Shown here in pieces: positions 22,011 to 56,704 of a stretch of DNA of 64,000 bases. A program made the translations under genes and the position numbers. The notes below the pieces were generated by a model that was given only the letters and a program-made list of their open reading frames with translations, made no database searches and was not told the DNA's origin. Position 1 is the first letter of the stretch. Each line of letters starts with the position of its first letter. Source of the DNA: Candidatus Cloacimonadota bacterium (GTDB lineage: Bacteria; Muiribacteriota; UBA6191); contig NVVD01000001.1 in assembly GCA_002402105.1 (NCBI GenBank), positions 637,345-701,344 of the forward strand. The letters run 5' to 3'.

Positions 22011-22139
22011 TTGAAAAATTAGAATGGGCCAGTTTTATGTTAAAATGGCTTTTTATGCTCAAATATAATTACTTTTTGTGTATAGATTTAACCTTATAAT
22101 ATAGGGTTTTGATCAAAAATATTTGATCGTGGGGTGTTT

Positions 22140-25100: not shown

Positions 25101-28100
25101 AATGGACAAAACTTAAGTTCTATTGCTGGTTTAGAGCCTCAAAGTAGTGTAAGCTTTTTAAATATTGTAGATTTAATAGGTACCTCTCAATCTTTTGTAG
25201 CAACTCATACATACCTTGGTGATGAGGTTGCTAAAGTTGTTCAGTTACAAGATAGAGTGTTGTTTGTAGCAGGTACTTCTATTTTTGAAATTTCAATAAA
25301 TGGACAATTGTCTTGGTTAATGGGAGCTTCGTTTGAATCTTTTTTATCGGGCTCTTTAATAGCTATGCAATCAATTAATTGGCAATTAAGGGCTTTTGAA
25401 AAAACAGGTGTAAATAGCATAATGATTTCGGCTTTAGTAAGCGATGTTAGTATCCCATTGACTAGTGGTTTAGCTCAGTATATTCCAATGAAAATTTATC
25501 AGCTGACGCAATCATTAGACTCTAGTTTTATAACTAGTGAAAAATATACAATCGGTGATAATTTAATAAGTCTTGATTATCTTAAAGATAATATCCCAGC
25601 AGCTCAAATGCCAGCTTCAATATTAGTTAATGGTGAATATCATGATGTGATAGAGTCGTTTTCATTTTCACAAAACAAAGTTTATTTTATAGTGAGAGAT
25701 TCAAGATCAATTGATGCTTCACTACTTGATTTTCCAAATCATCTTTATTCAATGGACGTAGAGACTGGTCTTTTAAAACAGGAGTTAAACCCTACTTTTG
25801 GTTTTGTACAAGAGTTAAGTAGCCCACTCAATGAGCTAAAAAAAGCACCCAATGAAATGTTGACTATGGGTGATGAGATATTGTTTGTTTATCTAAACGA
25901 ACTTGATAGAAACGCTTCAAGTAATAATAGTTCTCCATCGACAGGGGGTACTACAGGTATAATAAATTCAATAGGTTCGGCATCTTCAAATAATAATGTT
26001 GGACTAGAGTTGGGTTTATTAAATCCATCAACAAACAATGTCTCACTTTTAATGGATGATGAAAGTGAATTGGTATTAAACTTTAAAACAGAAATTCTAC
26101 TAACAAATGGTTCTTTGTATACTTTAAGAGAAGAGTTTGATCATTCAGTAGCTACATTTTCAACTCAAATCATTAAAAAGGATTACTTTAAGTCAATAGA
26201 TGAGAACGAAGAAAACTCTATTTTTGAAATACCATTTGGTATTACAATAAATAAACTAATTTATCACTCTTTTGCAAAAAAGTTATTAGGTTTAACTTCA
26301 TCTTTAGAGGGGTCGATGTTAACGAGCTTTACTTTTGACTCTAAAAAAAGCAATTCTTTATCGACTTCTGCATCAGTTTTCATACAAAATTTTCCAAATG
26401 CTTTATCAACAATGACTCCATTAATATCAGGAGCAAGCGAAATATCTGACATGAACACTCTTGCTTTTGCTTCTGGTAATAATTTAACTTTGAACCAAAT
26501 TTCTTTACCAAGAGCGGAATATCTAGAAATTATTGCTGACGATACATCTTCTAATATACTGATTAAAATAAAGGTGTTGAATGATTTACAATTGTATAGA
26601 GTGGACATAAATACTTTAGAGGTTCAATCTATAGTGGACTTTAGTATTGGACTTCCGAGTAATGATGGCCAAGTTGTATTAGATTTTGATGCAATTGAGC
26701 TAGCCCAATTTGTAGGTGATGTAGTATTTTTAATACATAAAGGTAGCGTATATAAATTAAATATTAGTTCACAAAACTTAGATGTGTTACATATTAGTGA
26801 AAGTACAGATATTGTTAATGCTCAATCCATTCCTGATAAATCATCACCATTGTTTGTACAAGATCTAACCTTTTCAAAGGATGTAAGTCATGACTTGTAT
26901 ACTATATTTAATTATCCAGAGAATGGACAAATTAATATTTCTGGTATATCAAAAGGTATTCCTAGACTAAATAATGTAATATTTTCTTTTGTGAGATCAG
27001 AGTTTCAAAATGTTGCAGTAGAGGCTGAGTTTGACTTTGATCAAAAAACAATCCAGCAATTAGTCCAAGAGAGCTGGAGCACATTAGATGAGCAAAAAAA
27101 GATTTTAATAAAAGATATACCAAACTTTATAGCCATGTCTTTGTCAGACGTAAAGTTCAAAAGTTCTTTTCAGGGTATTTATTTACAAAGTTCAGGTTTC
27201 TTTAACACTCAATTATTGGCATTAGACCCAAGGCCTATTATTAGTAGTGATTTACTAATTTCAAATGTTCACTCTTTAAGTGGTTCTACAAATTTAGTGG
27301 CACATGATGTTATTGAGTTTAACTATCAAACAAATAACAATGAAAATATTGATTTTCATGCAACAATTGGTAGTGAGGTAGTGGAGTTTAACAACGGTAT
27401 TGCTTCTTTAGAGCTAGGGTCATTCGTCGGAAACTTCAATACAAATATACTAGCAGGAGCCGTAGGTATAGATCTACTAGGAAGAAAAACAAAAGTATTT
27501 CAAGGCTTAAACATAGCCCTTTCTTATGAACAAAGCATTTTAGACTTTGTACCACAAACATCAACAATTACTATTGAATCTAGTTTAGTTGAGCCATTAG
27601 TTTTTCAAAGCTCTTATGACTTTTCATTAAAGTCTACACCTTTTTCTACTTTGGCTATTGTAATATTAAGAGCAAATGGGGCAATTGTTGAAGTTAAGCA
27701 GTTTCCTTTACATAGCCGTGATGATTTTACTGAAACTTTTATACATTTAGATGTACCTGATGGTGTAGATCAGATAGTAATTGAGATTGCAAATCCGAAT
27801 GGTAACTCAGGTAGTCCTTTGGTTTATGACTTAAAAGTTATGAGGCTTACAACAATTTCTGGAGCTTTTGGTACTGGTTATGGTGCAGATCATTCAAACA
27901 TAGAACCAATTAGGCTTTTAAAAAGAAACTCAGCAGGAGGAGTGCCTTTTTTATTAAGTGAAAAAAGTAACTCTGACTTTGATTTAAAGTCACATGATCT
28001 ATTTAAAATTACTGAGAATAATACTATAGAAGGCTCATCTTATTTTGCTGCATTTGTTGATGAGTTTGGAGACGATGCTTTTGAAAAAATACTGGGATAT

Positions 28101-30806
28101 TCTGATGTAACAGACTCTATATTTGGTCAAGTTGCTATTGAATCTATTTTTAATTCAGAAACATCATCATTTGAAACCTTGATAGAAGAAGAAACAAGTA
28201 ACTTTGGTACTTTTGAAGAAACAACTTTGATGTCAGGTGTAATTAGATATGATGGACAATATGAGCTTATAACTTTTGTTAATGATAGTTTTTACTTGTT
28301 AGGTAAAACTTTAGATAGTGATCATGTTTTATTAAAAACTACTGATTTTATCAATGTTGACTCTTACTTTTTATTAGATGAAGTAAGTGATTTTGTAAAA
28401 GAAAATGAATCTAGTTTTTTAACTTATGATGAAGAAACTAATAGTTTATTGATGGGTATTAGATCATTTCAAAAAGCTTACCTATATCAATTTGACATAA
28501 ATAGCCCAGCAGAGCCTACAATTTTATTTACTCAAGATGTAACATTAAACAGTGAGCTAATCACTTTTGATGATGATAGACCAGAGTATCTAAACTCTAG
28601 TGGTCTTTATGGTTTTTTTGCAGCATATTATTTTGGTGGTAAATTATATGTTGGTTTAAATACTAGTGATACACAAAGTGGAGGTGTTGTTGTAGAGATG
28701 CAATCTACACCATTTGCAAATCAAGATGAAGACTCAAGTTCAATCATTCATAAAGCTTATTTTAAGCCACATATCGGAAGACCAAGCCATCAGTTTTTTG
28801 AAAAATATTCTTTAAAGCTAAAAGCAGATATAAATACAAATGCTACAAAATCTATTTTAAATCAAAATGGTCGTTTGTTTAAGCTAGATTTTGCAAACAA
28901 TTTAGTAGAGATTATTGACAATATTCAAAGCCCAATTTTAGTAAAGCAAGAGCAAACATCTGATGTAGCTCAAGGTTTAGTAAAAGCTTATGATCCATTT
29001 GATTTTCACCAAGAAATTAGACAGATGGTGGCAAATTATTCAAAATTAGATCAAGGTTTAATACTTGGTTTAGAGGATGGTAGTGTCGCTTATTATAACT
29101 TAAATCAAATGAAAATTTACCCTTGTAAAGTGATTGAAAAGTATAGAGAAATTAAGCAAAGTACAGATGGTCTTTCTACTTTAGTTTCAAATGATTTAGG
29201 ACAAATTTATAAATTAAATATGCAATTAGGTACAGACTACTGTGGAGCTTCTTTAAAGGTGACTTTACCTAAAACTAGCTTTAACTCAGGGCATTTTAGT
29301 TTTGCTGAGATTGATTTTCAAAATATTTATTTATCTTATGATAATCAAATTACTCTTTATGATAGAGCTTCAAAGCAATCAACAGAGATAGTTAGCTTTA
29401 CGGACTCTTTAACTAGGTTTAATTTAAGTTTACAAGATGGTTTACTCTATTATTTAAAAAGTATTGGTGTAGAGTTTGAAACAAAACAGTTTTTTAGTTT
29501 AGACCCTACCTCAGGTCAAGAGACATTTATACAAGGTGATGTAAAACAGGTATATCGTAAAGATGGTTTGTTTTTCTTGCTAACATCGAATGCTTTATTT
29601 AGTTACGACCCAAACACCACTAATAAAAAACAAGAGTTAAGCCTTTCTTTTGATGGTAAAGGGGCATATGCTAAAGACTCACCATTAAGTGATATTAAAG
29701 CTTATGAGTTGGTAGGCTTTGCTTCTGGTTTAAATAATAATATAGGTTATTTGATACAAAACTTTAGAGGAAACTCCCAAATAAAAAGAGTTGAATTAAG
29801 TAGTTTTCCTAAACCTTCTATTGTAGGATCATCAGAAAACCATGGTGGTTTAAGCATATTAACTAATGGAGATAAAATCACTTTTCAAGTGCAAATGGAT
29901 GGTTCAGACCCAGTAGTTCTTAATGCTAGATATAATGGACAAAAATTAGATTTTTTACAAAAAACATCAGGTTTTTATGAGGCTGATTATTATGTATCAT
30001 CAAGGTCAATACCACAAACTTTAGCTACGTCTTTAGTCGGTTTGAGAGCTATTAACCAATATGGAGAAATTTCAGATATAACCAACATTTTTATAAATGG
30101 AAACTTAGAAATCTCTCCAATAAGTGAAACGATTAGAGATTTAAAACTCTTAAGTGTTAAATTCTCTAGGATAGATACTGGAGTGTTTAATATTATTATG
30201 AGTGTTGAAAATACCAGCTCATCTACTATTGATAATGTAGAGTATGAGTTTTTATCTAAACAGATTTCGTTTAAAACTTCAGCAGCAATAGCTTTACAGC
30301 CAAAAGAGCTAAAAACTGTTGAGTATGTGTTAGATAGAGCTATAGTGTTTCCTACTTTAGGTGGTTTTTTTCCGATCAGAAGTCATTTAAGAGTTGGAGT
30401 TTTACCTCAAGTTGGTAGGACAAATAGTTTTTATGATGAAAGAGGCGCTGATAATTATGCTTATGTTAGTGAAAATCAAGCACCTAAGTTGATACCAAGG
30501 TTTTTTAGTTTTGATTTTAATAACGAAACAGATTTAACTCTATCTCAAACTAATGGGGTACAGACTCTCTTTTTATTTAAAGAAGATGATTCTAATACTT
30601 CTGACTTAATAATAAATCAAATTAATAGTAATACAGAGCTTATTGTTACAATTACAGTTACAAATGTACTACATGAAGGTCGTGATACAATTAGAATAGA
30701 TTTCTTTCCGGTAGGTTTAGCTAATGACTTAGTTTTTGAAATTGAGGTAGAAGACTTAGAAGGTTTATCAAATACTTATAAGTTTAATATAAATATAGAG
30801 CAATAA
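22140..30806 (+). CDS. 2888-residue exported multidomain surface protein
   Basis: I chose the ATG at 22140, preceded by GTGGGG as ribosome binding site; a GTG two codons earlier is possible. A signal peptide covers about residues 1-25. Two N-terminal repeats of a Trp-rich module follow (GVWSIKNDMWSFW...GYHVVG and SYFDKKLKAWVSW...SFWVYTN), resembling the GWN-type domain of other surface proteins. Four chitobiase C-terminal-like beta-sandwich repeats of about 90 residues follow at about residues 440, 529, 620 and 709, each with a YxxDGSxP-type motif (FYTLDGSNP, FYSLDGST, FYSTDSSA, FYTIDGSTP). The next 2000 residues are rich in short strands with repeated LYxxDxxTG-like turns, suggesting one or more beta-propellers. 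There is no C-terminal sorting domain or membrane anchor that I recognise. Probably cell-surface or secreted, adhesive or glycan-binding. A terminator follows. Confidence 0.75.
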   Translation: MKFLLNVMTFFVLQTFITCGLSVASINLDSLKLSKNGFVGVWSIKNDMWSFWSKDKRFSDKVSYLDSLQTIKAGFGYHVVGQYQKEIRQIISDNQKEVSVLIEKSGWAYVNLSNKSTFTFKENRLNGIKEISYFDKKLKAWVSWKLTSLEGTFEIPKKQSFWVYTNKDSVSIGSDNKELINIKGNVKLKTTNVRPELSFNLGSEHIEKRTKNLFVLHKESNKEGFYLDVNSFHSKGVHLDYLKIEQIEAKNKNLIFSKRNYSKSFTNERVFVNPKFGDRLEFIITTKVLHSDVKQSRFFVEVKDQRLTSLKRLFNNLKRTTRLRSTNLLSANEIDMIELSVSGEGIEPTRVETYPANTTDANITIIAGPQRTFLVRFIDILGDVIKEASTTVDVSNTINSPLSLQVKDLGFTALNLSHQAGQYGDAFDLQMSISSGKLFYTLDGSNPKLNTSIVFEASTTSIHIDASIVLKVFIKEDGGRRSGVFTHNYELGGTPTVDLEVLSKSYQNQFLAPAVLKFTSNFANTKVFYSLDGSTVSTVSDFGTVPFSVVVTNSNLISYFGLSSLGEQSQQKTTEVFLLNSSFSLAPNVESLISGDLFNNKYFFPVDILFESNLPETKVFYSTDSSAVTTLSSFEIAPFHLTINENTNIKYFAKSVVDIQSDLSQLEILGHEANAISADIAIAFSSPEISGHYTFPMTATFTGFLNVKVFYTIDGSTPTTSSSSAIVPFDLMLTQASNIKWFGSVSESIISTTQSIDLLELSDGFYETRDTYISANGVRVFSGNLLGGETLNLLIDGVDSSSLVQLSADGLSYHYEITPDSNSNEIVFKILNQNNDELALFNNVINNPILNHVFGGPSYGLPSQYFSMNLVGGYGSAAYNYETEEKVFYNSMSGSLIKVNKSSTVSLVRNFGDLAIFNELGDIGPSIDYTNNDQLESFEKFSKRSGVVSARGLEYVFTTLNWLNDPVSLVHEGQNYQSYLATKIYKYNGQNLSSIAGLEPQSSVSFLNIVDLIGTSQSFVATHTYLGDEVAKVVQLQDRVLFVAGTSIFEISINGQLSWLMGASFESFLSGSLIAMQSINWQLRAFEKTGVNSIMISALVSDVSIPLTSGLAQYIPMKIYQLTQSLDSSFITSEKYTIGDNLISLDYLKDNIPAAQMPASILVNGEYHDVIESFSFSQNKVYFIVRDSRSIDASLLDFPNHLYSMDVETGLLKQELNPTFGFVQELSSPLNELKKAPNEMLTMGDEILFVYLNELDRNASSNNSSPSTGGTTGIINSIGSASSNNNVGLELGLLNPSTNNVSLLMDDESELVLNFKTEILLTNGSLYTLREEFDHSVATFSTQIIKKDYFKSIDENEENSIFEIPFGITINKLIYHSFAKKLLGLTSSLEGSMLTSFTFDSKKSNSLSTSASVFIQNFPNALSTMTPLISGASEISDMNTLAFASGNNLTLNQISLPRAEYLEIIADDTSSNILIKIKVLNDLQLYRVDINTLEVQSIVDFSIGLPSNDGQVVLDFDAIELAQFVGDVVFLIHKGSVYKLNISSQNLDVLHISESTDIVNAQSIPDKSSPLFVQDLTFSKDVSHDLYTIFNYPENGQINISGISKGIPRLNNVIFSFVRSEFQNVAVEAEFDFDQKTIQQLVQESWSTLDEQKKILIKDIPNFIAMSLSDVKFKSSFQGIYLQSSGFFNTQLLALDPRPIISSDLLISNVHSLSGSTNLVAHDVIEFNYQTNNNENIDFHATIGSEVVEFNNGIASLELGSFVGNFNTNILAGAVGIDLLGRKTKVFQGLNIALSYEQSILDFVPQTSTITIESSLVEPLVFQSSYDFSLKSTPFSTLAIVILRANGAIVEVKQFPLHSRDDFTETFIHLDVPDGVDQIVIEIANPNGNSGSPLVYDLKVMRLTTISGAFGTGYGADHSNIEPIRLLKRNSAGGVPFLLSEKSNSDFDLKSHDLFKITENNTIEGSSYFAAFVDEFGDDAFEKILGYSDVTDSIFGQVAIESIFNSETSSFETLIEEETSNFGTFEETTLMSGVIRYDGQYELITFVNDSFYLLGKTLDSDHVLLKTTDFINVDSYFLLDEVSDFVKENESSFLTYDEETNSLLMGIRSFQKAYLYQFDINSPAEPTILFTQDVTLNSELITFDDDRPEYLNSSGLYGFFAAYYFGGKLYVGLNTSDTQSGGVVVEMQSTPFANQDEDSSSIIHKAYFKPHIGRPSHQFFEKYSLKLKADINTNATKSILNQNGRLFKLDFANNLVEIIDNIQSPILVKQEQTSDVAQGLVKAYDPFDFHQEIRQMVANYSKLDQGLILGLEDGSVAYYNLNQMKIYPCKVIEKYREIKQSTDGLSTLVSNDLGQIYKLNMQLGTDYCGASLKVTLPKTSFNSGHFSFAEIDFQNIYLSYDNQITLYDRASKQSTEIVSFTDSLTRFNLSLQDGLLYYLKSIGVEFETKQFFSLDPTSGQETFIQGDVKQVYRKDGLFFLLTSNALFSYDPNTTNKKQELSLSFDGKGAYAKDSPLSDIKAYELVGFASGLNNNIGYLIQNFRGNSQIKRVELSSFPKPSIVGSSENHGGLSILTNGDKITFQVQMDGSDPVVLNARYNGQKLDFLQKTSGFYEADYYVSSRSIPQTLATSLVGLRAINQYGEISDITNIFINGNLEISPISETIRDLKLLSVKFSRIDTGVFNIIMSVENTSSSTIDNVEYEFLSKQISFKTSAAIALQPKELKTVEYVLDRAIVFPTLGGFFPIRSHLRVGVLPQVGRTNSFYDERGADNYAYVSENQAPKLIPRFFSFDFNNETDLTLSQTNGVQTLFLFKEDDSNTSDLIINQINSNTELIVTITVTNVLHEGRDTIRIDFFPVGLANDLVFEIEVEDLEGLSNTYKFNINIEQ

Positions 30807-38399: not shown

Positions 38400-40064
38400 A
38401 TGAAATACTCTGTATTTTTTTTAATTTTCTTTCTTATAGGTTGTAAAGAGCCTATTCAACAAAAGTTGCGGGTTTTATTTCCAAAAGGTAGAACCCGTTT
38501 AATAGCAGATTTAAAAAGCGATGATATGTTTCATGGAGTTTTTAAAGAATATTATAAAGACAGTAAAATAAAAGTTCAGGCTAAGTTTTTTAATGGAAAA
38601 CTAGACGAAGAGTTTTCAATTTATTTCAGAAATGGTGATTTAAAGTTAAAAAAATATTTTAGTAAGGGTATTTTATCTGGTTCATTTGAAGAGCATTATG
38701 CAAATGGTAGTTTAAAAATTAGTGGAGAATACCAAGGCGGAAAAAAACATAGTAAACATCGTAAATATTTTGAGAATAAAACTTTAGAAAGCATTATAGA
38801 ATATGATGAAGGAAGATTAAATAATATTAGTGTTTTCAACTATAAAAACGGTCTTGTAAAAGTGTTAAAAAAATATGATCAAGGTAAGTTAGAGTTTGTT
38901 AAAGAGTTTAATTTAGATGGTATTTTAACTGTATTAAAAAAAAGAATAGATAACTCATTGTTTGATTATAAAATAAGTAGTATTCGTAATAACTATACTA
39001 AAACTACAGATAAATCTTGGATGTATGCTGTAATAACAAACGGAAAACTTGCGGGTAAAAAAGTAGGCTATGAAAAAAAATGGCATCCAAATTATCAATT
39101 AAGTGAAGAAAAAAAATGGGTACAAGGAAATCTAATTTATACAAAAAAGTATAGTCCAGAGTCGGTTCTGATTTATAATAAATATTATAAAAAGGATTTA
39201 ATGATATTAGAGACTTGGTATCCAAATGGTTTTAAGAAGGCCATTAAATCTTTTTTGGCTACAAAAAAACACGGTAAGTTTTTGAAATATTATGATACTG
39301 GAGACCTTCATATAAAAGACTATTACAATAAAGGAAAAAGAGAAGGTCTATACGAAGAATATGATGAAAAAGCCCAAATTAGAGTTCAGTTAAATTATGT
39401 TAAGGGCATTAAATCAGGTCGTGCAATTTTATATTATGTTAACGGAAATAAAAAAGAAGATAGAAAATATAAAAATGGTAAATTAAATGGGCCACAAACT
39501 CTTTATTATCCTAATGCAAAAATAGAACAAATTTTATCGTATAAAATGGGAGTAAAAGAAGGAGTCTGGATTTCTTATTATGAAAATACCTCAAAGAAAA
39601 AGGCTCAAGTAAGTTATAAAAATGATAAGAAAAATGGCCTTGTAAAAGAGTTTTACCCCAGTGGACAACTAAAAATCTCAGTTGCATATATTAATGACTT
39701 AAAAAATGAAAAAGAAAAAACCTTTGATAAAGAGGGTAATTTTATAGAAGTAAGCGAATATAATGAGGGAGAGCTGAATGGTATTCAGATTTTTTATTCA
39801 AAAAATAAAAACATTTTAGAGTCTCGAAGTTATAGAAAAGGAGTTCGCCACGGTTTATCTCAAAACTTTTATCCTAACGGAAAAATAATGAGCAAACAAA
39901 TTTATAGAGAAAACTTTTTATGGGGAAGTAAAGAAGACTATTATTCTAACGGAAGAAAGAAAAAGGTTTGTGAATTTGTTAAAAATAAAGAAGGAGCATG
40001 TCGCTTTTTTAAAAGAAGTGGCGAAGAAACCTTCGACCCAGAAGAACAGGCAAAACTACAATAA
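38400..40064 (+). CDS. YwqK-type (MORN_2) repeat lipoprotein
   Basis: A 554-residue lipoprotein: signal peptide with lipobox FLIGC, so Cys15 is probably lipidated. The mature protein is made almost entirely of MORN_2 / YwqK-like repeats of roughly 20-24 residues, of the form YxNGxxKxxxxYxxGKxxGxxxxY (for example FYPSGQLKISVAYIN and YYPNAKIEQILSYKMG). More than a dozen can be traced from residue 40 to 540; one repeat has a Trp-rich version (TWYPNGFKKAIKSF). The YwqK name comes from supposed antitoxin homologues, but as a lipoprotein an envelope scaffolding role is more likely. Last gene of the pepP operon. It is the second MORN-type protein in the window, of a different repeat family from the one at 2-1864. 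Confidence 0.85.
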   Translation: MKYSVFFLIFFLIGCKEPIQQKLRVLFPKGRTRLIADLKSDDMFHGVFKEYYKDSKIKVQAKFFNGKLDEEFSIYFRNGDLKLKKYFSKGILSGSFEEHYANGSLKISGEYQGGKKHSKHRKYFENKTLESIIEYDEGRLNNISVFNYKNGLVKVLKKYDQGKLEFVKEFNLDGILTVLKKRIDNSLFDYKISSIRNNYTKTTDKSWMYAVITNGKLAGKKVGYEKKWHPNYQLSEEKKWVQGNLIYTKKYSPESVLIYNKYYKKDLMILETWYPNGFKKAIKSFLATKKHGKFLKYYDTGDLHIKDYYNKGKREGLYEEYDEKAQIRVQLNYVKGIKSGRAILYYVNGNKKEDRKYKNGKLNGPQTLYYPNAKIEQILSYKMGVKEGVWISYYENTSKKKAQVSYKNDKKNGLVKEFYPSGQLKISVAYINDLKNEKEKTFDKEGNFIEVSEYNEGELNGIQIFYSKNKNILESRSYRKGVRHGLSQNFYPNGKIMSKQIYRENFLWGSKEDYYSNGRKKKVCEFVKNKEGACRFFKRSGEETFDPEEQAKLQ

Positions 40065-44859: not shown

Positions 44860-47800
44860 TTAATCAAGCTCGGATTTATTATTGATATATCCCAAATATG
44901 TAATCAATAATAAGATATAAAAATATTGTAAACCGCCAGAAAAGCTAGGGATTAAAAATAAAGCAACAAATGATAGTGTTATTTTTAACTTAGGAGAGCT
45001 TAAACTTAACTGAAAAAAGACAGCTATTATAAATATAAAAAATAGTGGGGTGTACTCTATCTCATTTTTAATGATTTCTTTTTTTTCTTTAATCTCTTCA
45101 AATTCGATAGCTATTTCAGATTCAACTCCGTTTCTTGCTCCAACATAAAAGTACTTACCTCTAGGAAATTTAAATTGAAAAGAATTGCTACTTGTTACCA
45201 TTTGTGTAAATCCATTTAAATTGTACTTTTGTTGGATTCTGATAGGGTTTTCATCAGAAAATTTATACATATTTTTATGTGTAGTCAAGGCAAAATATAG
45301 GTTTTTTATATCTGTTTTTAATTTAGGTAAAGTAATTTGATATTTATCGTCTTTAAAATTTAATTTAGCCTTTAAAAGAAGAGTAATCTTAAATTGTCGT
45401 TGTCTTTTATATTTTTTGAGTGGCAATAAAAGGTTTAGAGAGTCTTTTTTGACGATATTAAGGTGTTTGCCATCTATTAAGGCTTCTTCTAAGATTGTGC
45501 CTTTTGGTAGCTTTAATTCAAGAAATTGGCTTTCTTTGTTGGTGAGAGTTAAAACCAACTTTTGATAAATTTCTTTTTTTGAGATTAAAAAGTTTTCTAT
45601 TTTATAAGATAAACATTTGGTTTTAGAGAAAGAGACAAATGATTTTGACTTTATTTCAACAGAAAACTGAGTATTTTGGCTTAGGTGTTGAGGGATGTTT
45701 TCAAACTCTAAAACCTTTCTTTGAAAGCTATTTGAAGCTGTTTCTCGTAGGGCTTCGTTTAGAGTGAAGTTTATTTCCTGTCCTTCTTTGAGTTCTTTTT
45801 CTAGTTTAAAGATGTTCTCTTTAAATTGTTTTGGATGAAAAGGGAGATGGAAACTGTTTTTAGATTTCTTTTGAAAATATCTATAGGTAATTAAGACTGG
45901 CTTTGAGTTATCTTTTAATTCAATGTTTAAATAATTATTTTCTAGTTTTAAAGAGAAGTCTTGCCCTTGCTTTAGTGACTTATAGTTTCTCTTAATATTA
46001 AATTGAGATAAAGTAGTATTTTTTTCTAGGCGTAATTTAAACTTTTTTTTATGGGAGATGCTAACTCTATTATTAACAATAATATAGGGGTCAGAAAATA
46101 AAATCTTTTGATAAAAGTTGATTTTAGATTTTCTAACTTGTTGTACTTTGTTAATGGTGTTTATTTTGTTTTGATGATAAAAAGTTGGAGATTCAACTTC
46201 TTTTTTAATGAAGGGGTGGCGACTAAAATGTAGTGATATTGTTGCATTTTTAGATGAAGTATAATAACTATTATTTATAAAAACTGTGTCTTTTATTTTT
46301 AGGTAATAGTCTTTTTTACTAGACATGATAGAGCTTTGTAAAGAGGTAGAAATAGGTACTTCACTATAAAAATCATCTCCATAGTTTTGTGACTTCATAG
46401 GTAGTTCAATAAATAATAAAATGGTTTCTCCATCAAAGTTTTCTACATTAAGTTTAGAGTATCCATATTTACTTGATTTGTTTAATGAAACAGCTTCATA
46501 GTTTTCATCAAAACATTTACTAATAAGGGTTTTATTGTTGATTTTGAGTAAAGTAAAGTTTTTAGCATGAGAGCTCGCTAGATTGAATGTATAAATTACA
46601 AAAATCTTTTGTTCTTTAAAGTTTGGTTTAATAATTAGACTTTGAGATAATATATTTGTGGTATCTATGTCATTATTTTGTTTTTTTGTTAGTTGATTGA
46701 TTAATTGATCTTGCACTAAAATTTGATTTTTATAGCTAAAGTCATTGTTTTTAAAATCAAAAATTTGAAAAACTTTTTTATAGTCAGGGTTGTTTTGATA
46801 CCGTTGTTTACTTGCTTCACTACTATTAAATAGTAGTAATGCAACAAAAAAGACTATAGAGTTTTTGCAAACTCTTGAGATAGAGTTAATGAGTATGATA
46901 GCTATGACAATAAAGAGGGGCTCTGGTCTCATAAACATAAATTGCCCTGCTGGTGATAAAATCATTAAAATAGATAAAAAAGCTAATAATATTAGTTTTT
47001 CTTTTTTTTCAAGATAGATAAAGATAGCTAAATATAAAAAAGAAAATAGGCTACTTGTTAATAAAAAAGAATTTGATTTTGCTTTATTGATTGTTAGTTG
47101 AATATAAATTAAACCATCAATTGGTGTTTTCTTTTGAAATTTAATAATATTAGACAATTTAGGAAACTGTATTTCCACTGGTTTTACTCCGCTTTTTCTA
47201 ATTTTTTTATATTTTGATTTAATTTCACGTTTTAGTGGTTTTCGTTTGTATTTTTTAATAGAAGAGCGAACTTTTGAAGACCAGCTAGATTCTTTATAAT
47301 CTCTTCTATTTTTTTGTCTTCTTTGGTCTTTTTTGAGAGCACTAGACCTTTTATTTGAACGTCCAAGAAGTCTAGAGGGTGGTCTTGGAGCAATTTTACC
47401 CTCAGCGATAGATTTATTTGCCATAGCGATACCATCAAAATCATCAGAAAAGCTATCAGCTTCTTCTTGAAGCTCCATGATTGGTATATTATTTTGTTTA
47501 TAGCCACTAAAGTTACTTTTTGGTTTTTGAAAATTAACTCTAGCCATCATTTCTGGACGTAAATTACCTCCCATAAAACTCATAGATGAGAGTATAGCGA
47601 GAAAGAAAAATCCTCCGATAAATAAAATAAAAAGCATCACTTTTTTAAAAGTAGATAAAGGAGCATTTGATGAAAACTTTTTATAAATCCATAAAAGAAA
47701 CTGAATAGTAAGACCTAATAAAATCAGGGGAACAAAAATAATAATTACAATTTGAAACGTAGATAAAGAAGATTGAAAAAATTGAGATAATACATAGTTT

Positions 47801-49392
47801 GCATAGTTTTTGATAGGAGTTGTGTATTCTATTTTTTGAAAGTTTAGATTAGAGCTTTTAGGCCTAACATCTAAACCTTTTGGATAATAAAAGTCCCAGT
47901 TTGTTTCAAGACTTTTTTCTTTGGTCGGTAAATACAATGATAATTGTTTGCTTGAACTTAAAGACTCTAGAGTTTTAATGGCTATGGTTAGGTTTTTATC
48001 TTTAGGTAAGTTAATAGCAATTTGAGCTTGGTCATTACGAAAGGGTTTAACTGGTTTATTGTTAATATATGACCCTAGAAATTGTACTTGAGGAGGGATA
48101 TTAAATACAAAGCTAGAAGCTCCTAAATTAAGTACTTTGAAGCTATATGAGTTAGCTAGACGAAATTCTTCGGTGATGATAGATGATACATGTGTATTTA
48201 AAACCTTTAACTGAGAGGATTTTTGCTGTGGATATATCTTTGTTTTTAGTTGAATAGCACCCAATTGTTTATAAAATTCAAAACTTTTTAAAATAGGTAG
48301 ATTATGACTATCTAAACTTTGGTCATTTAAATAGGGTAGAGCTATTAATTGTTCATTTTTGATAGAGCTAATTTCGACATTTTCACTTGAGATAAAATAT
48401 AAAACTCCTTTAAAAAGAGTTGCATTGGTTAAGCTAGGTAAATGAAAGCCATCGACAAGTGATTTTTTAGGGATACTTTGAATAAAGTTTAGGCTGATTT
48501 GACCCATAAAACCATCGGGAAAGATAATTTCTTTATCGTTAAATAAGAATGGGATACTAGGTTTAAAAGTTAAGCGTTTTAATTGAAAGTCTTTTGAAAA
48601 AGAGTGTGAGAGCGAGTAGATTTTTTGATGTAAAACATTAATGTTTAGTTTTCCTTGAATTAATAATTCATTTTTTTTGATGTCTATTTGATAAAGAGGC
48701 TTAGATAAAATAGATGCTTTTAGGGCGGTCATTTGGCTATTAACTATAGATTTTAAAGGGTTTTTTTTGTTTTTTGTAACTAAAACTACTTTAGGTTTTA
48801 GAGGAGTCTTAAAAAATTGTATATAGTTTAACCCACCAACAGCAAAAGAGTCATTGTTAGTTAAAGTAAGAGTATGATTTTTATTGGATGGGTTTTTAAT
48901 ACTAAAACCAAGGCCATTTATGATTTTAATTTTAGTTAATGGAATGGGAGGGAGTTCTAATAAACTAGAAGGTTTTACTAGAAATTGCACTTCTCCTTTC
49001 ATTTGTTTTGTAATAGCTAAGTTTAGATGGTTTGAACCTTCTTGATATTGATTTATAGATTGTTTGTTTATTAAAACCCATGACTTAGGAATTAATGGTA
49101 AAAAAGTATCTTTTTGAGTAGATTTAAAATGAATTTTCCATTTAAAAGTAGCTGTAAAATATTTCTCTTTTTTAAGGCTCAATTGATATTGAGAAGACTC
49201 CATTTGGTTTTTATTTGATTTTGAGTTGTAATCATCAAGTAATTGTTTAAAGTTTTTTTGAAGGATGAGTTGGTGACCAACATAACTATTTTGATTTTTA
49301 TCAAGAGGGATAATAGATTGAATTGTTTTTAAAGAATTAGCAAAACTAAGTGAGACTTGAAAGATAAGAGATAAAAGAATTATAATTTTCAT
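44860..49392 (-). CDS. Giant exported membrane protein, paralogue B of pair
   Basis: A 1510-residue protein with a signal peptide (1-18). Layout: extracytoplasmic domain 1 (about 19-540), ending in a beta-sandwich-like module with FNIPPQVQFLGSYINNKPV at about 431; a transmembrane pair (about 545-615); an extremely basic segment (about 680-730, Arg/Lys-rich); three or four more helices (about 770-855), the last of which ends like a signal peptide (LLLFNSSEA); extracytoplasmic domain 2 (about 860-1430), containing LKLPKGTILEEALIDGKHL at about 1291; and C-terminal helices (about 1445-1505). I know no named family. The twin LP-G-x-L-x-A-x-I-D/N-G modules recall those in large exported proteins of other phyla. 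It starts 1 base after the stop of the 1431-residue paralogue, so the two are co-translated. Confidence 0.65.
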   Translation of the reverse strand: MKIIILLSLIFQVSLSFANSLKTIQSIIPLDKNQNSYVGHQLILQKNFKQLLDDYNSKSNKNQMESSQYQLSLKKEKYFTATFKWKIHFKSTQKDTFLPLIPKSWVLINKQSINQYQEGSNHLNLAITKQMKGEVQFLVKPSSLLELPPIPLTKIKIINGLGFSIKNPSNKNHTLTLTNNDSFAVGGLNYIQFFKTPLKPKVVLVTKNKKNPLKSIVNSQMTALKASILSKPLYQIDIKKNELLIQGKLNINVLHQKIYSLSHSFSKDFQLKRLTFKPSIPFLFNDKEIIFPDGFMGQISLNFIQSIPKKSLVDGFHLPSLTNATLFKGVLYFISSENVEISSIKNEQLIALPYLNDQSLDSHNLPILKSFEFYKQLGAIQLKTKIYPQQKSSQLKVLNTHVSSIITEEFRLANSYSFKVLNLGASSFVFNIPPQVQFLGSYINNKPVKPFRNDQAQIAINLPKDKNLTIAIKTLESLSSSKQLSLYLPTKEKSLETNWDFYYPKGLDVRPKSSNLNFQKIEYTTPIKNYANYVLSQFFQSSLSTFQIVIIIFVPLILLGLTIQFLLWIYKKFSSNAPLSTFKKVMLFILFIGGFFFLAILSSMSFMGGNLRPEMMARVNFQKPKSNFSGYKQNNIPIMELQEEADSFSDDFDGIAMANKSIAEGKIAPRPPSRLLGRSNKRSSALKKDQRRQKNRRDYKESSWSSKVRSSIKKYKRKPLKREIKSKYKKIRKSGVKPVEIQFPKLSNIIKFQKKTPIDGLIYIQLTINKAKSNSFLLTSSLFSFLYLAIFIYLEKKEKLILLAFLSILMILSPAGQFMFMRPEPLFIVIAIILINSISRVCKNSIVFFVALLLFNSSEASKQRYQNNPDYKKVFQIFDFKNNDFSYKNQILVQDQLINQLTKKQNNDIDTTNILSQSLIIKPNFKEQKIFVIYTFNLASSHAKNFTLLKINNKTLISKCFDENYEAVSLNKSSKYGYSKLNVENFDGETILLFIELPMKSQNYGDDFYSEVPISTSLQSSIMSSKKDYYLKIKDTVFINNSYYTSSKNATISLHFSRHPFIKKEVESPTFYHQNKINTINKVQQVRKSKINFYQKILFSDPYIIVNNRVSISHKKKFKLRLEKNTTLSQFNIKRNYKSLKQGQDFSLKLENNYLNIELKDNSKPVLITYRYFQKKSKNSFHLPFHPKQFKENIFKLEKELKEGQEINFTLNEALRETASNSFQRKVLEFENIPQHLSQNTQFSVEIKSKSFVSFSKTKCLSYKIENFLISKKEIYQKLVLTLTNKESQFLELKLPKGTILEEALIDGKHLNIVKKDSLNLLLPLKKYKRQRQFKITLLLKAKLNFKDDKYQITLPKLKTDIKNLYFALTTHKNMYKFSDENPIRIQQKYNLNGFTQMVTSSNSFQFKFPRGKYFYVGARNGVESEIAIEFEEIKEKKEIIKNEIEYTPLFFIFIIAVFFQLSLSSPKLKITLSFVALFLIPSFSGGLQYFYILLLITYLGYINNKSELD

Positions 49393-49393
49393 T

Positions 49394-52300
49394 TTAGTTC
49401 TCCTTTTTTTGGGTAGTTTTAAAGTTTCTAGTGAAATAAAATGAAAGTATCCAAATGATCGAAAATAAAACAGCCATTTTAATTGAATAAATACTATTGA
49501 AAGAAAGAGAGTATTCTAAAAATAGGAGTAGTAAAATATGAAATAATAGTACTTTAAACTTTAGCATTTTAGGTGGTGATTGAAATAGCAGTAATATATA
49601 TAAAAGAGTAGAGAAAAATAAGAAATAATGAATCTCTTTGCTATCTTTTATTTTAGATAAATGAAAACCTTGAGATTGAGATTGTTCATTCGCTTTTTGA
49701 AAATATCTATGTAATCTAATCGGTTTATTTGTTTTAAAAATAGAAAAATCAACAGGGGCTTGAATTGGATTTTTAATGGCACTCACTTGAGGCCTTTTTA
49801 AAAATTCGGGTTCTTTTTTAAAGTTACCTTTTACAAAAACTCCTTGTTCTAAGTTAAACTTTAAAGGTTCAAACAAAGAGAGTTCGTAAAATATTTGGGC
49901 ACTTGCTAAAGAAAAATTAGGTATATTAATTTGTCCATTCATATTTTCTAAAACTTTTTGTTTACTCGTAATTTCTAGTAAAAAAGCTTCGATTTCTTTT
50001 TTATTGTTCAGCTCCATTCTCATTGGTATTACAATTTCTCCATTATGTTTACCTGCTAAAACAATATCTCCGTTGATTCTAGCGGTTAAAAGCTGTTCGT
50101 TTTCAGGTAACTTAATATTAAAAAACTGTTGCCCGTTATTTCTGATAGTGAAAGCATACCGACTAAATAACCATCCATCTTTTTGTAAAAAAGAGTATAC
50201 TCTTAGGCTGTCTACAAATGCGCTAATAGAGTGAACAATCTGACGAGGAATAGCCTGTATTTTAAAATGTTGATTTTTGGGGTTTGTATTTTTGTGTAAA
50301 AGTTGATGAAAAACAGGGTTTGACTCACTTTGAATTTGAGTAGCATTTTTTAAGCTAGCGATTAGCTCATTGCTAGGAAGAATAGAAAAAGATAGGTTTT
50401 CGTTAGCACTAAAGTGAAAAATATTTTCAAATTGGTCAGCTTTTGGATTATAAAAACTATTTAATATGGTTGACTTATTTTTGAGTGAGGTTTCCATTTC
50501 AAGTTGAACATATAAATCATCTTTTTGGGCTTGAGCGTATTTAATCATTAAGATGCTTTTTTTATCATCTACATACCAGTCACTTACTTTTGGAGTGCCA
50601 CTAAGGTTTAGTATTTTAATATTTTTTGGAAGGTGAATTAAAAACTCACTTTGATAAGCTCCTTTTTTAATGATGTGTACTTTTGATTTGATTTGAATAA
50701 AGTTTTCTTCAATTAAACTTGTATGATTAACAAGAAACTGTAGTTTTTCAGGCTCTAAAACTTGGGTTTTAATGGCCTTTGGATTAGCAACTATATTTGC
50801 TCTCTTTTTTTCTTTGATAAATTGAAAGTTAATTTGTTTTGATGCAGCTAAGTTGAAACGATGTTTTTTAGTTTTGGCCCATTTATAAACAGGTGACTTA
50901 GTAGTAAATGAATAATCTTTTACTTTAGGAAAATTTAATTGTTGAATAGCAATACTAGGAGCTTTTAGATTAAAATAGACATTTTTAGGAAAATCATTAG
51001 TGATTAAATATTGTACCTGAATGATAGGGTAATAGTTTTTAGGAGTTAAAATTACAATATTATTTTGGTTTATTTTTTGAATACTTAGGGTTTCATTATT
51101 ATTACTTGTGATGCTTTCTACAATAAAGTGATTTGAATATCTAGGGATAGTAATAGTTTCACTTTTGTTTGAACTAGCTTTTAAATAGAAATTTATATGG
51201 AGCTTTAAACTTTTTTTAATAATTTTAAAGTGGAGTTCACTTTTATAAAATATTGAAGATGTATTGTTTGTACTTTTTGTAAAAGGTTTTGGGTATTGGG
51301 ACTGTTTAATAAAAGTTAGTATTTTACTTTTTGTTTTGTATTTATATAAGTCAATGGTTTGAGTATAGCTAGAGTTTGAAAGAAAGCTTAATAAAATAAA
51401 AGAGCTAATTATCTTTTTAGATTTGACAAGATTTTTTAGTAAAGGAAATAAAAATATAAATAAAGGTGCAAAAAATAAATTATGAGAGATTGATAAAACT
51501 TGGTGGGTTTGTAGTAGAGCTGTTAATAAAATAGCAAAGCATAAAAAGAGAGAGGCAGCTAGATAAGATTTTTGTAATAAAGATAAAAAGATAAGACTTA
51601 AAACTAAAATAAAAGCAAGGGTAAAAATAGGATGTTTAAAGAAAGAAGACTTTTTAAAATCAAGTTCGATGTAGAAATTAGACTCTAAACCATGAGGTGA
51701 ATATAGATGAGAAAAGTTGTTTTCACTTGGCAGTGAGTAGATGCTTTTTTTATGAATTGTTGGTACAAAATGGCCATGAAGTATAGGCTGTATGATTTGA
51801 TTTGATGGAGGATGATTTTGTTGTAAAGAGCTTGAGAAATAAGCACAAAAAACAGTAAAAACAAGAAGAAAAAAACTCAGTAATTTTAGCTTACGTTTTG
51901 TTTTATGGCATGGATGAAAAAAAGTATTGTAGCTTAAGTTAGATTCAAAGAAGTAGATAAAAGCAGCAAATAAAATTAATAATGGAATCAAATAATGGAT
52001 GTAGCTATCACTTAATTCAAAAAATAAATTAAGATCACTTTGATTTTTTCGATGTGCCATCGGAAAATTTGTTTTAAGTGATGGTTTTTTTATACTATCA
52101 TTAATAATATTATAATGAATATTTGTGGTTTCTTGTGAGAGTGGAATTTCAATTTTAAAATGGTCTTTGTTTGTGTTTTTACTTAAAAACTGTACTTCAA
52201 TATTATGTAGTTTTAGGCTAGCTAATGACTTACTTTGTTGATTTAAATTTAAAAAGTTACCAACTTCACTTTTATAGATAGTTGAACTTGGTACATCAAC

Positions 52301-53689
52301 TGAGTACTGCCCTTTTTTATTAATAAAGGTATGAATCTCTCTACCATTTAGACGAGCAGACTTTAAGTTAATCCCTTTTGGTAATGGTAATATAAAGTTA
52401 CCAGCTTCTTGTTTTTGAAGTTTAAATTTCCATTTATGGCTAGCTGATAAATCGGGGTTAATTTTTGTGGTTCCTAAAAAAGAAGAAATGAGTGTTTCTT
52501 TTAAGGGGTAACGGTCAAAAGTTTCAGTTTTAATTTGAAATTGTAATTTAGCCTTATAAAACCTAAAGGCATATAAAATAGGGACTTTAAGATTTTGAGT
52601 CATTATTTTAGGAAGCTCTGAAGCATCTATTTTATTGATGGACTCTGGATGCTCAAATTGTACTTCATGTATTTTAACTACATCTTTTGTAAAAAAAGAT
52701 AAAAAACCACGTTCTTCTTCAAGTTGATTGAAATGAATGCCTTCGCTTTCAAGTTGGCTTTTTTGTCCTTGATTTCTTGTTAGAGGGTATGTTCCTTTGA
52801 TGATTACTCTAATTTTATCTCGTTGAGAGGAGTGAAATTTGATTCTATTTTTTTCAAGAGTAAAACTAGTGTATGGTTCAACCTGAATTTTATTGAGTTT
52901 AAATTGTTTTGGAATATGAATTTTTAATTCATTGATTGGGTTTCGAGAAATTTTAACCTGAGAGTTAAAAGTATAGTGCAAATATTTTCTACTGATATTG
53001 TAGGAGTGGTTTGATTGTGCAATTACTAAGGCTTTTCTGGATTTTTTTAAAATTGGCTTTATTGGATCTTTTACTTTTGTATTACGAGTATTAATAGGTA
53101 GGTTTGCATTAATTTTTATTTTTTGGATATTAGAAAAAGGACTAAATTTGTTTTTAGCTGTAAAGCTTCTTAGTAAAGATTTGTTAAAAAGTTGTACTTG
53201 CATACTTAGAAAATCTTTATCTTTAGTAAACTTTGCTTCGCCTGTTAAAGTAGACATCCAAGGTATTGTGATTTGCCAATGGTTTGTTTTTTCAAAAATA
53301 GGTAAAAAGGCTTTAATTTTGACTTTGTTATTGGGTTTTTCATTAATAAAAAAGCCTAGATAATTTTGATATAAAGCAACGTTACTATTAATGATAAGCC
53401 AATTTTTGGATAATACTTTTAAGTTTTCTTTGTTGAAGTTTACATCTAAAATTAGGTTAAGTTCAAGCCCTTGTTTTTTTAAATGAAAGTGAGCATCTTG
53501 ATATAAAATTTTAGAATTTTGTTTTTTGGAAGAATCTTTAAAAATTTTATCCAAGTTATTTTCATCAACTAAAATATATTGAGAAGAGTTTCTTTTAAGC
53601 TCGGTTTCAGACAAAAGTCTAGTTTTGAAATCTACAGCAAAGTTGGTTTGAAAAAAAAGTGATAATAATAACCAATAAAACGCTTTCAT
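49394..53689 (-). CDS. Giant exported membrane protein, paralogue A of pair
   Basis: A 1431-residue protein with a signal peptide (1-18, TNFA). It has the same layout as the next gene on this strand: a first extracytoplasmic domain (about 19-540) with ILPLPKGINLKSARLNGREI at about 435; transmembrane helices at about 560-620; a short loop; a further helix cluster (about 680-780) ending in a signal-peptide-like stretch (ILLSFLSNSSYT); a second extracytoplasmic domain (about 785-1320) with IKLPENEQLLTARINGDIVL at about 1190; and C-terminal helices (about 1350-1425). The matching module positions imply descent from a duplicated ancestor. No catalytic motif or known family is visible. An ATG-proximal ribosome binding site is weak. 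First gene of a two-gene operon. Confidence 0.65.
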   Translation of the reverse strand: MKAFYWLLLSLFFQTNFAVDFKTRLLSETELKRNSSQYILVDENNLDKIFKDSSKKQNSKILYQDAHFHLKKQGLELNLILDVNFNKENLKVLSKNWLIINSNVALYQNYLGFFINEKPNNKVKIKAFLPIFEKTNHWQITIPWMSTLTGEAKFTKDKDFLSMQVQLFNKSLLRSFTAKNKFSPFSNIQKIKINANLPINTRNTKVKDPIKPILKKSRKALVIAQSNHSYNISRKYLHYTFNSQVKISRNPINELKIHIPKQFKLNKIQVEPYTSFTLEKNRIKFHSSQRDKIRVIIKGTYPLTRNQGQKSQLESEGIHFNQLEEERGFLSFFTKDVVKIHEVQFEHPESINKIDASELPKIMTQNLKVPILYAFRFYKAKLQFQIKTETFDRYPLKETLISSFLGTTKINPDLSASHKWKFKLQKQEAGNFILPLPKGINLKSARLNGREIHTFINKKGQYSVDVPSSTIYKSEVGNFLNLNQQSKSLASLKLHNIEVQFLSKNTNKDHFKIEIPLSQETTNIHYNIINDSIKKPSLKTNFPMAHRKNQSDLNLFFELSDSYIHYLIPLLILFAAFIYFFESNLSYNTFFHPCHKTKRKLKLLSFFLLVFTVFCAYFSSSLQQNHPPSNQIIQPILHGHFVPTIHKKSIYSLPSENNFSHLYSPHGLESNFYIELDFKKSSFFKHPIFTLAFILVLSLIFLSLLQKSYLAASLFLCFAILLTALLQTHQVLSISHNLFFAPLFIFLFPLLKNLVKSKKIISSFILLSFLSNSSYTQTIDLYKYKTKSKILTFIKQSQYPKPFTKSTNNTSSIFYKSELHFKIIKKSLKLHINFYLKASSNKSETITIPRYSNHFIVESITSNNNETLSIQKINQNNIVILTPKNYYPIIQVQYLITNDFPKNVYFNLKAPSIAIQQLNFPKVKDYSFTTKSPVYKWAKTKKHRFNLAASKQINFQFIKEKKRANIVANPKAIKTQVLEPEKLQFLVNHTSLIEENFIQIKSKVHIIKKGAYQSEFLIHLPKNIKILNLSGTPKVSDWYVDDKKSILMIKYAQAQKDDLYVQLEMETSLKNKSTILNSFYNPKADQFENIFHFSANENLSFSILPSNELIASLKNATQIQSESNPVFHQLLHKNTNPKNQHFKIQAIPRQIVHSISAFVDSLRVYSFLQKDGWLFSRYAFTIRNNGQQFFNIKLPENEQLLTARINGDIVLAGKHNGEIVIPMRMELNNKKEIEAFLLEITSKQKVLENMNGQINIPNFSLASAQIFYELSLFEPLKFNLEQGVFVKGNFKKEPEFLKRPQVSAIKNPIQAPVDFSIFKTNKPIRLHRYFQKANEQSQSQGFHLSKIKDSKEIHYFLFFSTLLYILLLFQSPPKMLKFKVLLFHILLLLFLEYSLSFNSIYSIKMAVLFSIIWILSFYFTRNFKTTQKKEN

Positions 53690-55959: not shown

Positions 55960-56704
55960 TTAGTATAAAAACCCAAAAATCCAAAGAGGGATTTTATTTT
56001 TATAACCAACTTCGATGTCATCAAAAGCTATAAAACTATTTTCTATATCCTTGATTTGTGAAAAACTTTTCTTGTATCCTCCAATTTCAAATAAAAATTT
56101 ATTATTAACTAAAAAGTCTCCTTTTTTTGGGTAGGTGACATTGTGATATAGGCTAAGAGCATTCAAAAAGAAAGTTTCTCTAAGGGTTCCAACTTCGCAG
56201 TCTAAAATTTGTAGAAGATTTTAGGCTTATATTTAGATTAAGTTCTAAAAACTCTCTAAAGCTCATACCATGCATTTTAAGTATATGAGCCCTTCTACTT
56301 AAATCATGGCTTCCCTGACTTATTTGTAATGCAGAGCTCCCAGAGGCAACAATCTGTAAATCTGGCAAAGAGTCATAAATTGTTTTTAATTCTTGTGACC
56401 AGTTTGAGTATTTATGAATTTCATCAAAACATAAAAGCTGACCACCTTGAGCTTCAAATTGCTTAGCAATTTCAAACATAGATAAATCACCTACAAAAAA
56501 ACTATCCATACTCAGGTAAAGAGATTTTAAACTTTTATTTATCTTCATATATTGGGCGATAGTTGTTGTTTTTCCAATTCCTCTTTGTCCTACAATAATA
56601 GTCAAACGATATTTTATTTTTTTTTCTTTAATAAAATATCTTTGATATGGAAGGGTGTTTTTTTGTAAGAACCTTTTAGATTCTAAGGTGATTTTGGATA
56701 ACAT
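55960..56704 (-). pseudogene. AAA_14 / DUF4143 ATPase with an internal deletion
   Basis: Two fragments of one ATPase family. The N-terminal fragment (56180-56704, 174 residues) has Walker A GQRGIGKTT, Walker B LLCFDEIHKYS and the sensor-1-like VASGSSAL, then ends in unrelated residues and a stop. The C-terminal fragment, in another frame from about 56190 to 55960, has GTLRETFFLNAL, DFLV, FEIGG and a final IPLWIFGFLY, the typical end of DUF4143 ATPases. The family is about 380-420 residues, so roughly 150 residues from the middle (between the AAA core and the C-terminal nuclease-like domain) are gone and the frame is broken at the junction near 56190-56210. Such ATPases often spread by transfer; this copy is dead, although the ATPase half could still be made. 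Confidence 0.8.

Follow-up and report, generated by a model that had tools for sequence, protein, structure and literature searches.

The described systems that come closest to the gene pair considered here are the type IV pilins and pseudopilins (GspG, PilA, ComGC and the DUF1559 / H-X9-DG proteins), the operons of the Planctomycetes type that contain extracytoplasmic function (ECF) sigma factors and zf-HC2 anti-sigma factors, and the Tad and type II secretion machines. The pair encodes two giant membrane proteins, P0002 and P0001, and lies in a 64,000-nucleotide stretch of a Candidatus Cloacimonadota bacterium genome assigned to the Muiribacteriota (contig NVVD01000001.1, positions 637,345 to 701,344; hereafter the window). 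Many relatives of these proteins carry a pilin-like alpha1 helix and short globular domain, either in the linker between clusters of transmembrane segments (TMs) or in the next gene, whereas the window proteins have neither a pilin domain nor a prepilin site, possess large extracytoplasmic domains (exodomains) that are not pilin-like, and contain several TMs per chain. Genes of the family stand within ECF sigma operons in two other phyla, and the third gene type of such operons matches no described family in the libraries searched; the window, however, does not have that arrangement, and neither do the loci read from its phylum. Similarly, genome G013 has a T2SSE fragment (E 6e-4, truncated where the contig ends) and two T2SSF genes just upstream of its family pair, but this linkage to Tad and type II secretion was seen in one genome, and the window pair lies outside any such operon.

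The identification of P0001 and P0002 as members of a large, so far unnamed family that extends over several phyla is well supported. What is new is this undescribed family and its arrangement, without any claim of a new mechanism, and the function that we propose for the family is derived from its genomic context.

Shared plan, duplication and fusion

The window pair consists of two adjacent open reading frames (ORFs) of 1431 (P0002) and 1510 (P0001) residues, exactly at the coordinates given by an earlier, sequence-only reading of the window, and a single base separates the stop codon of P0002 from the ATG of P0001. The AGGAG ribosome site of P0001 sits within the 3' end of the P0002 gene, so co-translation of the two proteins is likely. 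A hydropathy scan confirmed the common modular plan that had been proposed for both chains, consisting of a signal peptide, exodomain A (about 530 residues), two TMs, a linker, three TMs with a signal-like segment, exodomain B (about 580 residues), and C-terminal TMs. The first TMs, expected at about residues 550–620, fall at residues 563 and 601 of P0002 and at 548 and 585 of P0001, and the later clusters span residues 687–755 and 776–842, respectively. The LP-x-G module, which had been placed near the end of each exodomain, was found in three copies (residues 436 and 1194 of P0002 and residue 1295 of P0001), a count reached by none of 2000 shufflings of the residues; the other P0001 copy, at about residue 432, is degenerate (IPPQVQFLGSYINN). 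Another genome of the genus has intact orthologues of both genes, with 64% and 55% identity. The corresponding dN/dS values, of about 0.12 and 0.21, are rough because dS is near saturation, and third codon positions are 49% identical.

The shared plan had been taken to indicate both gene duplication and internal duplication, and several comparisons now show both. BLASTP aligns P0001 with P0002 over residues 210–463, in exodomain A (E 2e-8), and again over the end of exodomain B (E 0.002), and profiles of exodomains A and B built from single-unit relatives of the window's phylum align with each other over 297 columns (probability 100, E 2e-52). All four window exodomains match the family profiles, and both family hidden Markov models (HMMs) find both exodomains of each protein. 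The copy that is best conserved across the phylum, exodomain B of P0002, scores 323.9 bits (residues 988–1292), a value that is partly obtained by construction because the P0002 row was included in the profile; the exodomains of P0001, which stand outside the profile, reach 15.7–25.3 bits (22.6 and 25.3 among these scores), providing independent but weak matches.

The sister genus encodes a single fused ORF of 2791 or 2801 amino acids that spans both window proteins, with P0002 matching its first part (3e-84 to 1e-92) and P0001 its second part (~1e-36 to 1e-42), and a doubled protein of 3152–3165 amino acids is found in another family of the class. In the exodomain tree, P0002 pairs with the first half of the fusion and P0001, for exodomain B, with the second half, and the groupings of P0002_B with G002_1B and of P0001_B with G002_2B are both starred. 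The suggestion that the two proteins are subunits of one envelope apparatus is favored by these end-to-end fusions and by overlapping gene pairs in other phyla, and it is not proven. A stricter correspondence, in which the upstream and downstream genes of other phyla would represent exodomains A and B throughout, was unsupported. Pairs such as those of G155 and G303 group by genome in the tree, whose deep branches are weak, and the duplication or homogenization of pairs therefore occurred more than once.

Spread of the family and relation to known folds

These proteins are not restricted to the organism of the window, since the family is widespread in several phyla. The exodomain B profile has matches in 54 of 382 genomes, comprising 32 of the 40 from the window's phylum and 22 of the 342 outside it, and a cross-phylum profile of 37 rows (A7) matches 23 of 68 genomes in the phylum of G315, 5 of 7 in that of G353, and 32 of 79 in that of G174. 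The exodomain core with its RNN..QFL..LP.G..h.s..v.G module (profiles A3, A4, and A7) is present in all four window exodomains, and the window pair displays the plan of the family at large (signal peptide, exodomain, TM cluster, linker with an LPV-type module, TM cluster, exodomain, TM cluster). The usual form in the window's phylum is a single gene of about 1660–2090 amino acids with two exodomains, while other members are encoded as tandem genes of about 750 amino acids with one exodomain each or as fused forms of 1430–1776 amino acids. In the phylum of G174, two or three giant genes (typically 1100–1340 plus 1240–2850 amino acids) are adjacent at 17 of 22 loci, often with a 4-base overlap, and four other loci have one gene of 2140–2275 amino acids. 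Adjacent giant pairs are also seen in G166, G199, G007, and G013, so that a pair of giant genes with the same plan constitutes a recurring arrangement. Relatives were not found among plasmid records, as searched with tblastn, or among viral contigs, as judged from the profile pattern.

The earlier failure to match the pair to a known apparatus still stands. At E-values up to 1 the window proteins match no family of Pfam or NCBIfam, the exodomains of relatives returned nothing usable from the same libraries, and the exodomain profiles gave one match to PDB sequences at E 1.2 at first and none afterwards. A literature search found no description of the exodomain family. Neither a match to a characterised family nor an absence of shared domains was seen, and P0001 and P0002 do share domains. 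Two AlphaFold2 models are all-beta, with mean pLDDT of 39.7 and 52.9 and one domain at about 75, and their input alignments were shallow, because they comprised only the window sequences and one related locus. The nearest structures retrieved by Foldseek were OST1/ribophorin I, ranked first, and the N-terminal beta domain of M1 aminopeptidases, with TM-scores of at most 0.26; low-confidence models of P0002 exodomain B superimpose on M1 domains over about 90–106 columns at 2.4–3.3 angstrom. The likeness to the luminal domain of ribophorin I and to M1 beta domains is seen in the models only (pLDDT 53 and 40), with no sequence match, and is best taken as a low-confidence lead and not as an assignment. 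M1 peptidase activity was rejected, since a motif check of the window proteins found neither of the catalytic motifs HExxH and GAMEN.

Pilin-like linkers, gene neighbours and function

Most other families of the window's phylum have a type IV pilin-like domain within the linker (as in ELMIVIGIIGVLAAMAIPNFRKAREQARDKACYANQRVLLGAVEMYNMDN...CHIHG), which was found in members from families f2, f5, f6, f7, and f8. The profile of these embedded segments matches GspG (7e-12) and PilA (5e-10) among PDB sequences, and one member matches the NCBIfam ComGC model at 2e-12, which is below the curated cut-off of that model. A linker pilin-like domain is also found in G199, from another phylum, and in L094, from yet another, Pilin_PilA scores above its curated cut-off between the exodomain and the TMs. 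Of the embedded pilins inspected, L046 at most retains a motif resembling a prepilin cleavage site (GFRLVE), and the embedded domain is hence probably not processed. The linker of the sister genus shows a faint pilin-like trace, LIPNVRRARERS, which lies at the right place and is suggestive at E-values of only 0.06 and 0.2, and it appears that the pilin was lost from the chain in the lineage of the window.

The Arg/Lys-rich segment of P0001, singled out early as an oddity, is real. It has 27 Lys or Arg in 60 residues, and the congener keeps 23 in 60, while the sister genus does not retain it. The 172-residue linker as a whole contains 42 Lys/Arg and 15 Asp/Glu, compared with 41 and 23 in the congener and 21 and 17 in the sister genus. 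Because the segment aligns with the pilin site of relatives, preceding KPVEIQFP, it should be extracytoplasmic, a location that runs counter to the positive-inside tendency. The linker is a variable region that this lineage has filled with the basic segment, whereas most of its relatives in the phylum have a pilin-like domain there.

Our favored reading, to which we assign an even chance, is that members of the family are extracytoplasmic scaffolds or receptors that bind pilin-like subunits, and that the products of the two window genes form the halves of a single conserved envelope complex. Relatives often adjoin or fuse pilin-like domains, or adjoin envelope-signalling genes, and the pair is hence probably a two-part scaffold outside the inner membrane; the all-against-all similarity among members and the modular plan common to all of them are consistent with this proposal. 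In the scaffold model, each protein would be anchored in the inner membrane by its N-terminal, central, and C-terminal helices and would carry two large extracytoplasmic exodomains of tandem beta-sandwich domains, so that the pair would present four. P0002 and P0001 may associate as a heteromer, and the complex would bind pilin-like partners, which in relatives reside in the linker of the same chain or in the next gene. In the lineage of the window the chain would have lost its pilin, and the second subunit would have acquired a strongly basic linker; after this loss, a pilin partner would act in trans, or the basic linker might instead contact an anionic envelope polymer. Several observations weigh against the scaffold model. 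P0001 and P0002 show no significant match to a pilin domain and no prepilin site (class III signal peptide), the majority of members in other phyla show no fused pilin, genes for pili, sigma factors, or anti-sigma factors do not adjoin the pair among the window ORFs between positions 40000 and 60000, and the deep branches of the exodomain tree are long and weak.

The basic linker bears also on another account, in which these would be surface or periplasmic proteins for adhesion and envelope integrity, with beta-sandwich arms that bind polymers and with the link to pilins as a side branch. All-beta exodomains, a strongly basic linker in both P0001 and its congener, and the lack of a catalytic motif are what such proteins would display, but each chain has several TMs and the fused or paired order is conserved, which favors a defined membrane complex over a simple adhesin, and the recurrent pilin and sigma linkage would go unexplained. 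We regard this account as highly improbable.

The gene neighbours of relatives connect the family to sigma factors. In the phylum of G315, the order ECF sigma, anti-sigma, family gene, and pilin-like gene recurs, with the pilin-like gene next to the family gene in 11 loci. Pfam searches of these loci recover sigma regions 2 and 4. DUF1559 was detected in those downstream proteins that were scanned, and three scanned anti-sigma factors carry it in their extracytoplasmic part; of four anti-sigma factors scanned, two exceed the cut-off for zf-HC2. Three loci in the phylum of G174 have an ECF sigma gene and a YfbK/VWA gene (with zf-HC2 in one) followed by the family gene or genes, and two more have a VWA-type homologue upstream. 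In the window's phylum, a Peptidase_M50B-like intramembrane metalloprotease is encoded by the next gene in four type-II members (L045, L046, L047, and L049). All three arrangements, none of which is found at the window pair, are compatible with a sensor of envelope state, in which the family and its pilin-like domains would form the extracytoplasmic input of an ECF sigma/anti-sigma switch and proteolysis would free the sigma factor. On this view, the window pair would represent an orphan version that acts through a different output. We consider such a sensor rather unlikely, given that ECF and anti-sigma genes are absent both from the surroundings of the window pair and from the other loci read in its phylum, that the window genome has no M50B match, and that an ECF operon may merely control a structural gene. 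The lack of an M50B match in the window genome also led us to reject this protease as an obligatory partner of the family.

At loci L097, L111–L113, and L115–L123, an anti-sigma factor with a pilin-like extracytoplasmic part (DUF1559, with a DGHVEF ending) is encoded beside a second pilin-like gene, and a literature search found no description of such pilin-like anti-sigma factors. In the sister genus, a chemoreceptor gene and a rhomboid protease gene lie beside the fused giant gene, and a chemoreceptor with a NIT domain is encoded beside the giant pair of the congener.

The embedded pilins, the Tad-like genes directly upstream of the G013 pair, and the T2SSE ATPase genes found near three family f7 members (L050, L054, and L106) may alternatively indicate that the proteins serve a type IV filament-like machine (pilus, Tad, or type II secretion) as its assembly platform or as an anchor in the periplasm, in which case the embedded pilin would act as an integral minor pilin. 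The prepilin cleavage motif, however, is kept in one member at most, the Tad linkage is restricted to one genome and the ATPase linkage to two genera, and the window copies have no pilin, all of which makes this platform unlikely. Co-occurrence with T2SSF was uninformative as a test, since T2SSF genes are present in all 57 genomes searched. Neither the sensor nor the filament platform is fully exclusive of the scaffold that we favor. A composite is tentatively conceivable, if on balance doubtful, in which the beta-sandwich exodomains of paired or fused giant proteins would hold pilin-like domains and pass the state of the envelope or filament to an ECF sigma factor, with the window pair as a stripped, pilin-less version bearing a basic linker.

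Feature map of the window and significance of the family

The features of the pair are collected in Table 1. Two ABC transporter genes flank the pair on one side and a 121-amino-acid ORF on the other. Elsewhere in the window, the forward strand encodes a 2890-amino-acid secreted protein with KVFYTIDGSTPTT-type repeats (22134–30806), a 1265-amino-acid protein with about 29 predicted TMs (5419–9216), and two proteins rich in MORN-like or YwqK-like repeats (2–1864 and 38400–40064), and the reverse strand carries an apparently truncated P-loop ATPase-like ORF of 174 amino acids (56180–56704).

Table 1. Position and basis of the features of the P0002–P0001 pair, in window coordinates.
Feature	Position	Strand	Basis
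P0002, giant membrane protein, 1431 aa, upstream gene	49394..53689	-	ORF; matches first half of sister-genus fused protein
P0002 N-terminal signal peptide, residues 1-18	53636..53689	-	Sequence and alignment to N-terminal hydrophobic segments of orthologues; boundary inferred
P0002 exodomain A, residues 19-560, all-beta expected	52010..53635	-	Family HMM core at 225-501
P0002 TM1-TM2, residues 563-619	51833..52003	-	Hydropathy
P0002 linker, residues 620-687; position of embedded pilin-like domain in relatives	51629..51832	-	Alignment; no pilin match here
P0002 TM3-TM5 and signal-like segment, residues 687-775	51365..51631	-	Hydropathy, sequence
P0002 exodomain B, residues 776-1350	49640..51364	-	HMM match at 988-1292; phylum matches cover same region
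P0002 C-terminal TMs, residues 1353-1417	49439..49633	-	Hydropathy
P0001, giant membrane protein, 1510 aa, downstream gene	44860..49392	-	ORF; matches second half of sister-genus fused protein
P0001 N-terminal signal peptide, residues 1-19	49336..49392	-	Hydropathy; boundary inferred
P0001 exodomain A, residues 20-545	47758..49335	-	Family HMM at 304-507; BLASTP to P0002 exodomain A
P0001 TM1-TM2, residues 548-603	47584..47751	-	Hydropathy
P0001 linker with Arg/Lys-rich segment (basic core ~47188-47385), ending in conserved KPVEIQFP module	47068..47583	-	Probably extracytoplasmic, by homology
P0001 TM3-TM5 and signal-like segment, residues 776-862	46807..47067	-	Hydropathy, sequence
P0001 exodomain B, residues 863-1445	45058..46806	-	Family HMM at 1137-1391 and 1235-1370
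P0001 C-terminal TMs, residues 1448-1497	44902..45051	-	Hydropathy

If the scaffold reading is right, these proteins would represent one of the largest unannotated families of envelope proteins, overlooked because no curated model covers it, and thousands of genes for 'hypothetical giant proteins' would be seen to share one architecture. Through its repeated association with pilin-like domains and with ECF sigma and anti-sigma genes, the family would then also connect envelope signalling, in a concrete and testable way, with pilin-like proteins and extracytoplasmic scaffolds in phyla that have received little study.

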